Origin: Lachnospiraceae bacterium | Lineage (GTDB): Bacteria; Bacillota; Clostridia; Lachnospirales; Lachnospiraceae | Length of the DNA: 61,325 nt | Direction of reading: 5' to 3' | Assembly (NCBI GenBank): GCA_017436865.1 | Contig: JAFSCH010000065.1 | Location: forward strand, 1 to 61,325 | Part shown: piece by piece, positions 16,641 to 60,558 of the stretch | Layout of the letters: every line of letters starts with the position of its first letter | Numbering within the stretch: position 1 is the stretch's first letter | The notes under the pieces: generated by a model | What the model was told of the DNA's origin: nothing | Databases searched by the model: none | Seen by the model: only the letters and a program-made list of their open reading frames with translations | Program-made: the position numbers and the translations under genes

Positions 16641-16656
16641 TAAATATATAAAAAGA

Positions 16657-16684
16657 ACGAGTAGTTTATACTACTCGTTTTTTG
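16657..16684 (+). terminator. Intrinsic terminator of codY
   Basis: Stem ACGAGTAG (16657-16664) and CTACTCGT (16671-16678) with a six-base loop, followed by TTTTTTG. Confidence 0.9.
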
Positions 16685-16686
16685 TG

Positions 16687-16777
16687 TATTAGGAAATTGC
16701 TGTAACATAGTGGTAGTTAATAAAGAATTTACGAAGTAAATTCTTTGAGTGATTGCCGCTGGGCAATCACTTTTTTA
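16687..16777 (+). repeat. Repeat family 1, copy A1 (two-hairpin element)
   Basis: Begins TAGGAAATTGCTGTAACATA, then hairpin 1 (AAAGAATTTAC, GAA loop, GTAAATTCTTT), then hairpin 2 (GTGATTGCC, GCTG loop, GGCAATCAC) and TTTTTT. It lies directly behind the codY terminator and directly before copy B1. Homologous copies are at 55527-55673 and 58367-58451. Confidence 0.85.
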
Positions 16778-16871
16778 CTTTATAGGAAAGTGCTGTAGCG
16801 TAGTGGCAGTTAGACAAGAATTTCGTAAGAAATTCTTGCCAAAGTGCGTGCGCTGGCACGCACTATTTTTA
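16778..16871 (+). repeat. Repeat family 1, copy B1 (two-hairpin element)
   Basis: Head TAGGAAAGTGCTGTAGCGTA, hairpin 1 (AAGAATTTC, GTAA loop, GAAATTCTT), hairpin 2 (AAGTGCGTGC, GCTG loop, GCACGCACT) and ATTTTT. All 94 bases are identical to 55527-55620, about 39 kb away. Confidence 0.9.
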
Positions 16872-55489: not shown

Positions 55490-55526
55490 AAGGCGCTGAA
55501 TTCTTATAAGTTCAGCGTCTTTTTTG
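55490..55526 (+). terminator. Terminator of rpsB-tsf
   Basis: Stem GCGCTGAA (55493-55500) and TTCAGCGT (55511-55518) with a ten-base loop, followed by CTTTTTTG. Confidence 0.85.
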
Positions 55527-55620
55527 CTTTATAGGAAAGTGCTGTAGCGTAGTGGCAGTTAGACAAGAATTTCGTAAGAAATTCTTGCCAAAGTGCGTGC
55601 GCTGGCACGCACTATTTTTA
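55527..55620 (+). repeat. Repeat family 1, copy B2
   Basis: 94 bases identical to 16778-16871, with both hairpins and the final T-run. It begins at the last bases of the tsf terminator. Confidence 0.9.
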
Positions 55621-55623
55621 TGT

Positions 55624-55673
55624 ATTAGGAAAATGCTGTTACATAGTGGTAGTTAATAAAGAATTTACTATGT
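55624..55673 (+). repeat. Repeat family 1, copy A2 (truncated)
   Basis: Head TAGGAAAATGCTGTTACATA through AAAGAATTTAC aligns with A1. The right arm of hairpin 1 and all of hairpin 2 are missing. Tandem behind B2, as A1 and B1 are tandem in the other order. The rest of the gap to 55902 holds the promoter at 55779 and repeat family 3 copy b. Confidence 0.75.
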
Positions 55674-58366: not shown

Positions 58367-58451
58367 TAGGAAATTGCTGTTACGTAGTGGTAGTTAATAA
58401 ATAATTTACGAAGTAAATTATTTGAGTGATTGCTGCGGGGCAATCACTTTT
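58367..58451 (+). repeat. Repeat family 1, copy A3
   Basis: TAGGAAATTGCTGTTACGTA head, hairpin 1 (AAATAATTTAC, GAA, GTAAATTATTT), hairpin 2 (GTGATTGCT, GCG, GGGCAATCAC), TTTT. It begins ten bases after the ZIP terminator and ends in the stop codon of the galactanase gene on the other strand. Confidence 0.85.
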
Positions 58452-60558
58452 AGTCGGATATTCTGTTTAAAGTAAAGTCGTCCACAGTTCCCCAGCTCTT
58501 AGCATTACAGCGCATGCGAACGCCAATCGTAAGAGTGCCATTTGTAACTTTTATTTCTGAAATCGTAGGTTCTTGCCAGTTGGCATAACCATTTACCATG
58601 AAGGAAGCAGTCTGTTCCTTGTCGTTAGTAATTGCGTACAGTTCAAGTATGGAATCTGTTGACATGTCACCACCTTGAGCGTAGGCGATTAGTTGATAGG
58701 TACCAGGCTCTAAGTCAGTGAATTCCTGCTCGATAGCAAATTCCATGTTTGATTCTGACCAGAAGTGATAGGCAACATCACCGGAGTGTGCATCAGCAGT
58801 TTTTTTCTGGAAATCAGTTGGATTCTTCTCGCCGGCATATGTAATATTCCACATAGAAGTATCGGAATCTTCGAAGCTTGGATTCTGAACAAAGTTCATC
58901 ATAATCACATCAATGTGACAAGTGACAGCAGTTCCGTCGTCAAGAGCGCCTGTAACCTCATATGTGCCGCCAATGGTGGTGTCGATAGCGGTAAGTTGTG
59001 CGTCATCCCATGTAACGGTAGCTTGTTCCTTTGCAGAACGGTCATTATAGATAACATCAATCGTTTCGGGAAGAATAATTTTACTGCCTACATTGCAGGA
59101 AAGGTAAAGTTCTGGAATAAAGTCTATGGCAAGTGGAGCAGTTGTACCGTGTTCTAAGTATTTAAACACGTTCAAGGAAGCAAGAGGATAACCGTTAAAA
59201 TCAAACATGGCCTGATTATCCCATGAGCATCCACCATAATATAATCCTGCATCATCAGGGTCGTAATGACCAGCAAAGCTGCTTGCCCAGCCGCTTCCAT
59301 ATTTTTCCCAAATAGGAGAATTGTTGGCAGTGGCTTCGCCTACAGGAATCCATGTACCCTCCCAGTAGAATATGCCAAGAACACCGACTTCATTTGCAGC
59401 TGCACAAATATCACGAATTATGGTAGCCTGACTTTGTACAGTAGCGGCATATCCTTCAACAAGGTCTTCCTTACCGCTTATACTGTTGCCACAGCCATCG
59501 CCATCTTCTGAGGTATAACAATAAGAAGTCTCTGCAATAACAACCTTTTTGCCATATTTTTCCTGAATATTTTTTGCTACAGTCTGCATGTTTTCAGGAG
59601 TACCGTGCCAAAATGGATAATAAGACATTGCAAAAATGTCGTAATCGACACCAAAATTTAATAAATTCATAGCAATACGGTCGATTTTATCGGCTTCGTT
59701 TATATCCGTATAATGTACGGCAATTTGAATGTCTTTTCCATAGGTTTCAGATATTTCACGAACAGCACGGCTTCCGGAAGAAAGAAGATTCATAACACTC
59801 GGAAGAAGAGTTTCTCCGGACATACCATTGTTTATTTCATTACCAATCTGCACCATTCCTACATCTACACCGGCATCGAGAATCTCGGAAAGACTTTCTT
59901 TGGTAAAATCATAAAGTGCATTACATTTTTCGTCTGCACTCATACCTTCCCATGCCTTTGGTGCATGCTGTCTCTTTGGATCTGCCCAAAAGTCAGAATA
60001 ATGAAAGTCGATACATACCTTCATTCCATATTTTGTAGCACGTTTACCGAGCTCAATGGCTGTTGGAACATCATTATTACCACCGCCATAGCCATTACCG
60101 TTTTCGTCATAAGGGTCATTCCAAACGCGTAAACGAATGTAATTTACGCCAGACTGTGCAAGGGTCATAAATACATCCTGCTCTTCACCATCATAATTAT
60201 AATAAGTAACACCACTGTTTTCGTTTGCGAGTACAGCAGAAGCGTCCATACCACGAATAAAGTCGTCTGAAATACCTGCGATTGGTTCCAGATAGATTGA
60301 TGATTCTTCCGAAGCATCTGGAAGAGGGAAGGTAGTTACATCGATTTGTTCCACATTCGGAGTGGAAGCAGCATTTGTTACAGTGGCTTCTAAGAGAGGG
60401 GGTTCTGTGGACACGTTCTCTGTGGTAGCTTCGGTTGTAACAGTAGACTGCGGAGCTTTGGTAGAAGTGGTATTTTTTGAACCACAACCTGCCAATGCTG
60501 CTAAAACAAGACTGGCACTGATACAAAGCGCCAGAAGCTTTGTATGATATCGTTTCAT
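58450..60558 (-). CDS. GH53 endo-beta-1,4-galactanase lipoprotein
   Basis: A 702-residue secreted enzyme. The signal peptide ends in a lipobox LAALAGC (Cys25), followed by a Thr/Ser-rich linker. The GH53 domain at about 80-435 has FIRGMDASAV, INYIRLRVWNDP-like (VNYIRLRVWNDP) and IDFHYSDFWADP. The acid/base is E241 in QIGNEINNG and the nucleophile E343 in VIAETSYC. A bacterial Ig-like domain (about 480-545) and a C-terminal beta-sandwich domain with VQNPSFEDSDTSMW resemble a galactan-binding CBM (CBM61-like, inferred). It cleaves pectic galactan side chains at the cell surface. No transporter or beta-galactosidase is adjacent. Confidence 0.94.
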   Translation of the reverse strand: MKRYHTKLLALCISASLVLAALAGCGSKNTTSTKAPQSTVTTEATTENVSTEPPLLEATVTNAASTPNVEQIDVTTFPLPDASEESSIYLEPIAGISDDFIRGMDASAVLANENSGVTYYNYDGEEQDVFMTLAQSGVNYIRLRVWNDPYDENGNGYGGGNNDVPTAIELGKRATKYGMKVCIDFHYSDFWADPKRQHAPKAWEGMSADEKCNALYDFTKESLSEILDAGVDVGMVQIGNEINNGMSGETLLPSVMNLLSSGSRAVREISETYGKDIQIAVHYTDINEADKIDRIAMNLLNFGVDYDIFAMSYYPFWHGTPENMQTVAKNIQEKYGKKVVIAETSYCYTSEDGDGCGNSISGKEDLVEGYAATVQSQATIIRDICAAANEVGVLGIFYWEGTWIPVGEATANNSPIWEKYGSGWASSFAGHYDPDDAGLYYGGCSWDNQAMFDFNGYPLASLNVFKYLEHGTTAPLAIDFIPELYLSCNVGSKIILPETIDVIYNDRSAKEQATVTWDDAQLTAIDTTIGGTYEVTGALDDGTAVTCHIDVIMMNFVQNPSFEDSDTSMWNITYAGEKNPTDFQKKTADAHSGDVAYHFWSESNMEFAIEQEFTDLEPGTYQLIAYAQGGDMSTDSILELYAITNDKEQTASFMVNGYANWQEPTISEIKVTNGTLTIGVRMRCNAKSWGTVDDFTLNRISD

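Follow-up and report, generated by a model that had tools for sequence, protein, structure and literature searches.

A two-hairpin repeat directly behind intrinsic terminators in Lachnospiraceae suggests a small mobile element with a harmless insertion place

A repeat of about 93 bases sits nearly always directly behind a gene's stop signal in a Lachnospiraceae genome and brings a stop signal of its own, which suggests a small mobile element with a harmless insertion place. It was noticed in a 61,325-nucleotide stretch of DNA that was analyzed as a whole (the window). The repeat is probably a small non-autonomous mobile element that inserts behind intrinsic terminators in a single orientation. 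The evidence, read from sequence, lies in the architecture of the unit, its copy number, its position behind terminators, its orientation, empty sites in a relative, its arrays, the covariation of its stems and the coupling of the T-runs on its two sides. From these we infer mobility and termination.

A sequence-only reading of the window had described five copies, and a pattern scan placed their heads at 16690, 16783, 55532, 55626 and 58367, all on the + strand (Table 1). The same scan of 100 shuffles gave no head. B1 and B2 proved identical at 94 of 94 bases (16778–16871 and 55527–55620). The compensatory changes claimed between A1 and A3 were reproduced by alignment: a G-C to T-A double change in hairpin 1 keeps the pair, and a C to T change in hairpin 2 leaves a G-U pair. 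The genes 5′ of the loci are codY, tsf and a ZIP transporter gene, as had been proposed. A1 and B1 lie between the genes for CodY and a flagellar rod protein, B2 and A2 between those for EF-Ts and a HAMP-domain protein, and at A3 the ZIP transporter gene faces that of a GH53 glycosidase. A terminator had also been claimed before each locus. A simple terminator scan found that of tsf and reported the codY stem on the minus strand only; near A3 it scored neither the upstream long-loop stem nor A3 hairpin 2, which has a short T-run, and both of these stems can be read by eye. Hairpin 2 of A1, B1 and B2 was detected by the same scan. The T-run of A3 (58448–58452) shares bases with the stop codon of the GH53 gene, which is convergent, such that the end of the element is also the end of the neighboring gene. 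No Rfam family matched the window at the gathering score; the matches around A1 and B1 were all below the cut-off and were taken as chance.

Table 1. Repeat units and adjoining terminators in the window
Feature	Position	Strand	Basis
Hairpin and T-run of the codY terminator; A1 landing site	16656–16683	+	Stem reported on − strand (16679–16656, 10 pairs); T-run read from sequence
A1 linker (GTGTAT) and conserved head	16684–16719	+	Pattern scan, sequence
A1 hairpin 1, 11 pairs	16722–16746	+	Fold
A1 hairpin 2 and T-run, terminator-like, landing site of B1	16748–16777	+	Fold, terminator scan
B1 linker (CTTTA) and head	16778–16812	+	Pattern scan, B1/B2 alignment
B1 hairpin 1, 10 pairs	16815–16838	+	Fold, sequence
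B1 hairpin 2 and T-run, terminator-like; right arm pairs with head in best whole-unit fold	16843–16871	+	Fold, terminator scan
tsf terminator and T-run, landing site of B2	55490–55525	+	Sequence, terminator scan
Unit B2, equal to B1 over 94 bases; hairpin 2 at 55592–55613	55527–55620	+	Sequence identity, terminator scan
Unit A2, truncated after the left arm of hairpin 1 (linker and head present)	55621–55668	+	Sequence, pattern scan; no fold signal
Unit A3: head, hairpin 1 (58399–58423), hairpin 2 (58424–58449), short T-run	58367–58451	+	Fold, pattern scan

The unit consists of a linker of 5–6 bases before TAGG, a conserved head of ~30 bases, two hairpins of 9–11 pairs each and a T-run. Within arrays in the window's genome, units were spaced at 93–94 bases in 27 of 29 cases. 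Fold z-scores against shuffles were −5.8 for A1, −4.8 for B1 and −4.3 for A3, and 0.04 for the truncated A2. A point against two separate hairpins is the best fold of B1, in which hairpin 1 stands alone and the head pairs with an arm of hairpin 2. Both hairpins were present in 166 of 189 heads, one in 22 and none in 1, in a set drawn from all genomes examined; each head in it has a T-run upstream and departs from the pattern by no more than two changes.

Stem sequences diverge widely among lineages and pairing is kept; the copies in relatives have a similar head and very different stems. Elements chosen for having hairpins were used to quantify this covariation, with stems found one by one and pairing counted by script. 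For hairpin 1 (25 distinct stems), the paired fraction was 0.968 for a stem's own arms versus 0.605 for swapped arms; for hairpin 2 (42 distinct stems), the values were 0.958 and 0.513. RNAalifold recovered only 9 pairs from the first alignment because MAFFT had not aligned the stems of types A and B in register. Hybrid units were also seen (L004 and L006). In other units hairpin 1 is missing and the head is fused directly to CAAAGTGCG (L042, G000 C22:54411; L025, G000 C21:31419; and L205); two of these sites are in the window's genome, and one such site is also present in a near-identical strain. These units may represent a subfamily or a precise loss that occurred repeatedly. The unit has no clear terminal inverted repeats: 5′ TAGGAAA and 3′ TTTTTTA form a weak inverted match by eye. 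Pairing of head and tail, as a closing stem or an antiterminator, was considered and dropped, as the effect was small (duplex energy −6.56 for own versus −6.25 for swapped partners, with 0 of 100 shuffles as low) and came from a head table blurred by some heads one base out of register, which leaves the stem counts unaffected.

The window's genome (4.2 million bases in 169 contigs, with 7.68% contamination) contains 152 heads at no more than 3 mismatches, and a reversed-pattern control gave 0. We read 134 head copies at 105 sites, of which 79 are single, 23 double and 3 triple; these copies cover only part of the 152, and a few, taken at up to 6 mismatches, are chance matches. Identical copies recur elsewhere in the genome, for example at five places with 100% identity over 100–104 bases. 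Related Lachnospiraceae also carry copies, again paired and terminator-associated. With a sequence model, matches appeared in 12 of 60 genomes; the window's genome is one of the 12, and the others belong to the same genus. When 200 genomes from the family were scanned, 5 gave matches. Besides the window's genome these were two genomes with six matches apiece and two with a single weak match. Loci were read in four other genera and the element was present in three; the sole match in G187 (L300) has neither head nor T-run and was judged chance. When a single genome for each GTDB species was scanned with an exact pattern, 34 stretches came back, every one with Lachnospiraceae or Roseburia in its title, and several of the titles mention goat or dairy cattle gut. 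A viral collection gave no match to one exact pattern. In a tree built from 83 copies, to which large genomes contributed a subsample of 25, copies grouped by genome (22 label changes versus at least 46 in 200 shuffles), which is what multiplication within genomes predicts. Over 6 loci the only Rfam match at the gathering score was a cobalamin riboswitch (RF00174, 99.9 bits; L021:1186–1382), shortly upstream of a two-unit site.

After removal of two redundant sites from the 105, a T-run lay just upstream of the head at 102 of 103 sites. A hairpin of −6 kcal/mol or lower preceded it at 84 of the 103; among 1203 control T-runs, 11.3% had one. The 34-base stretch up to and including the upstream T-run had a median fold of −12.8 kcal/mol. 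By simple ORF calls, 72 of 83 sites have an upstream gene on the same strand and 10 on the opposite strand, and at 1 no such gene was found; a further 20 sites were omitted from this count because their flanks are short. At one bidirectional terminator (C102), a two-unit array lies on one side and a truncated unit on the other, both pointing outward.

The 3′ end of the unit resembles its landing site. At least five T residues occur in the 10 bases after hairpin 2 in 110 of 115 units, these being the ones among the 134 copies in which hairpin 2 could be typed. The combination is terminator-like, and hairpin 2 would be expected to stop transcription in the cell. An unusual class of T-run occurred on both sides of 11 of 108 parsed units (out of 134), where shuffling gave a mean of 1.55 and a maximum of 7 in 20000. 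Where TGTTC lies upstream, it also lies downstream at 8 of 9 sites, versus 5 of 75 others, with 19 of the 103 sites unparseable. Identity past the T-run exceeded that in shuffles at bases 1, 3 and 4 and not at bases 2, 5 and 6 (80 sites); it extends about 4 bases beyond the T-run. The coupled T-runs fit a duplicated target. Several of the coupled cases belong to one B lineage with the linker CTTTA, and for this reason both T-runs may have traveled together. Among the 24 arrays, 17 were labeled as having unlike neighbors, 3 of them because one unit was untypeable. Simple tandem duplication would give like neighbors, so arrays of unlike units require either that a unit landed behind an older one or that copies exchanged sequence. 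They fit re-insertion into the new T-run of a unit.

Comparison with the relative G014 provided sites without the element. Where both flanks could be compared, a script called 10 of 13 sites empty and 3 filled; we read one of the latter (C49_7194) as a chance match, giving 11 empty and 2 filled, in a comparison that covers 1.21 million of ~2.8 million bases, some stretches twice, and includes some loose alignments. An earlier round with half as much sequence had aligned 11 sites, of which 2 were filled and 9 empty. The tidiest case is C56_54368, where the terminator T-run of G014 joins the downstream sequence directly. In the window's genome two units separate the terminator T-run from that downstream sequence, which here too is preceded by a T-run. 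Many of the empty-site alignments are untidy, with bases extra or missing beside the T-run, and at C100 and C122 the projected flanks overlap by 36–41 bases; the insertion product is therefore left imprecise. Of the filled sites, the A3 site holds type A in the window's genome and type B in G014, making gene conversion between copies evident, and the other has two units versus one. Near-identical strains offered few comparable sites, and in most the element is present in both. At one terminator in such strains (L278:3080–3130 versus L283:4130–4290) there is either a full unit with a decayed head or a truncated head alone with a different linker, a clear strain-level rearrangement that marks turnover at a single site.

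A simple cycle would accommodate these observations. The unit would insert, in one orientation, in or beside the T-run of an intrinsic terminator, and insertion would probably duplicate the target T-run. Because the T-run is duplicated, the host terminator would keep its own and hairpin 2 of the element would gain one, and with it would act as an additional terminator. The T-run at the 3′ end would then offer a fresh landing site, so that head-to-tail arrays, often of unlike units, would build up. Since landing behind a terminator spares host genes, copies would be tolerated and could multiply within genomes. We envisage a dedicated route of movement, presumably by an enzyme acting in trans, for which the head would be the recognition site.

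The sequence-only reading had offered a mobile or selected structured element at gene 3′ ends, and mobility, structure, the tie to 3′ ends and conserved pairing all found support here. It had also suggested a backup terminator or a 3′ RNA. Under such selection the cell would keep copies against read-through or for transcript stability, and recombination would spread them. The structure fits: the 3′ end is terminator-like in nearly all typed units, the upstream gene is mostly on the same strand, the stems covary and the head is conserved in four genera. The element, however, stands behind a terminator that already exists, and truncated and one-hairpin copies remain. The patchy distribution (12 of 60 genomes, one genus), the 11 of 13 sites that by our reading are empty in G014 and the copies specific to single genomes point to termination as belonging to the element's way of life, not as the reason for its retention. 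We consider selection of this kind unlikely as the main explanation.

Spread might also proceed with no enzyme of its own, if terminator T-runs and hairpins underwent unequal exchange, template switching or gene conversion with one another. In favor of this are the hybrid units, the type swap at the A3 site, the strain-level rearrangement between heads and the T-run identity at both ends. What it accounts for poorly is the constant 5′ start, the single orientation, the predominance of single-unit sites (79 of 105) and the tidy gain at the C56_54368 terminator. As a full account, we judge enzyme-free spread rather unlikely, and favor the non-autonomous mobile element.

Four protein families were searched as candidate mobilizing enzymes (RVT_1, Y1_Tnp, rve and Transposase_mut), and each is missing from some element-bearing genomes. 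RVT_1 had no match in G011, G014 and G021, which are element-rich (32, 24 and 20 matches; 96%, 78% and 96% complete), and Y1_Tnp (PF01797) had none in these or in G027. rve was found in 4 of 8 carriers and Transposase_mut in 1 of 8. Thus no associated transposase was found among the families searched. A search for an autonomous partner, through heads that lack hairpins, returned only truncated or chance heads, and the loci examined included no parent transposon and no longer element sharing these ends. The absence of matches to reverse transcriptase and Y1 transposase in three element-rich relatives means that neither a group IIC nor a REP/RAYT reading is supported.

Group IIC introns land directly behind intrinsic terminators (PMC4424553), a landing site that the repeat shares. 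This similarity would suit a retroelement, either a terminator-ended RNA copied at a T-run/A-run by reverse transcriptase, as in SINEs, or the remnant of a group IIC intron. The unit does end like a terminated RNA, and the window's genome has RVT_1 matches. Compared with these introns, however, the repeat is only ~93 bases long, has likely T-run direct repeats and, in the Rfam searches of the window and of the loci, gave no group II intron match; several carriers (G011, G021 and G014) yielded no reverse transcriptase. A retroelement origin is very unlikely on these grounds.

Least probable, to the point of being nearly negligible, is that a RAYT or IS200/IS605 transposase moves the unit as a REP/BIME-like palindrome; the REP type had been suggested from sequence. 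REP/BIME elements, with their RAYT transposases, are abundant short intergenic palindromes that often form small clusters. The repeat is likewise abundant, short, intergenic, palindromic and often clustered, it has GTAG/GTGG motifs near hairpin 1 that we take to be REP features, and the window's genome has four Y1_Tnp matches. No head occurs, however, in the 1.6–2.1 kb around each of the four, and the Y1 family was not found in the three element-rich relatives (one 78% complete) or in G027. Moreover, the counted array units are co-oriented and the terminator is the landing site, and one would not expect an element of the REP class to have direct repeats at its ends.

The other suggested type, a MITE, agrees with the repeat in part. 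MITEs, including pneumococcal RUP and BOX (PMC10969869, PMC3049150), share with it short length, lack of coding capacity, high copy number and modular variants; target-derived direct repeats are likely in the repeat too, and the coupled T-runs would fit them. They differ in that the repeat has no convincing terminal inverted repeats and that neither a transposase nor, among the loci examined, a parent transposon was found. SPRITE of Streptococcus pneumoniae has a single 18-bp duplex with a long U-rich tract, AAAA/TTTT ends and no established target duplication (PMC3049150). Like SPRITE, the repeat is small, interspersed, similar to a Rho-independent terminator, enriched just behind genes and confined to few related species; unlike SPRITE, it has a 30-base head, two hairpins of 9–11 pairs, a T-run landing site and arrays, and it occurs in another lineage. 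Among the kinds compared, SPRITE is the nearest described one in form and group IIC introns are the nearest in landing site. Since neither shares its architecture, the repeat is best described as a small interspersed repeat with a distinctive targeting habit. Among the literature matches listed, we recognized no paper describing it.

Two further repeats of the window's genome also start behind T-runs. One starts behind terminator T-runs with ATAGGAAAGTTC (L306, L313 and L316; G000 C21:55774, C134:163 and C136:4327). It forms a palindrome in which the T-run and linker of the site itself recur, reverse-complemented, as the far arm, although the linkers differ from site to site (GTTCA, ATTCC and GAAGTA). 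It looks as if target sequence had been copied in inverted form. The other, an intergenic repeat of ~120 bases, begins with ATAGGAATTTCCTAT behind a T-run and ends with GAATGTGCTTTGCACATTC TTTGTTC; it is nearly full at three places (L096, G000 C135:5650–5780; C88:6858–6981; and C125:142–262), with partial copies elsewhere.

A bolder proposal, which we put forward tentatively and consider somewhat doubtful, is that the repeat represents a new class of mobile element. Such an element would home to terminators and rebuild its landing site at its own 3′ end, each insertion being harmless and opening the next. Its enzyme would differ from known reverse transcriptases and from Y1 transposases, and might be common to other TAGGAA-headed repeats of the genome. 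Small interspersed repeats are common in bacteria; a terminator-targeted family that rebuilds its site is unusual. Landing on a terminator and re-creating one would be an unusual way for a selfish element to multiply in a compact genome without damage to genes. The terminators across the genus would serve as a natural library of insertions, and both the target rule and the enzyme could be deduced from it. For annotation, copies of this repeat may account for some of the tandem terminators and unusual small RNAs of gut Lachnospiraceae.
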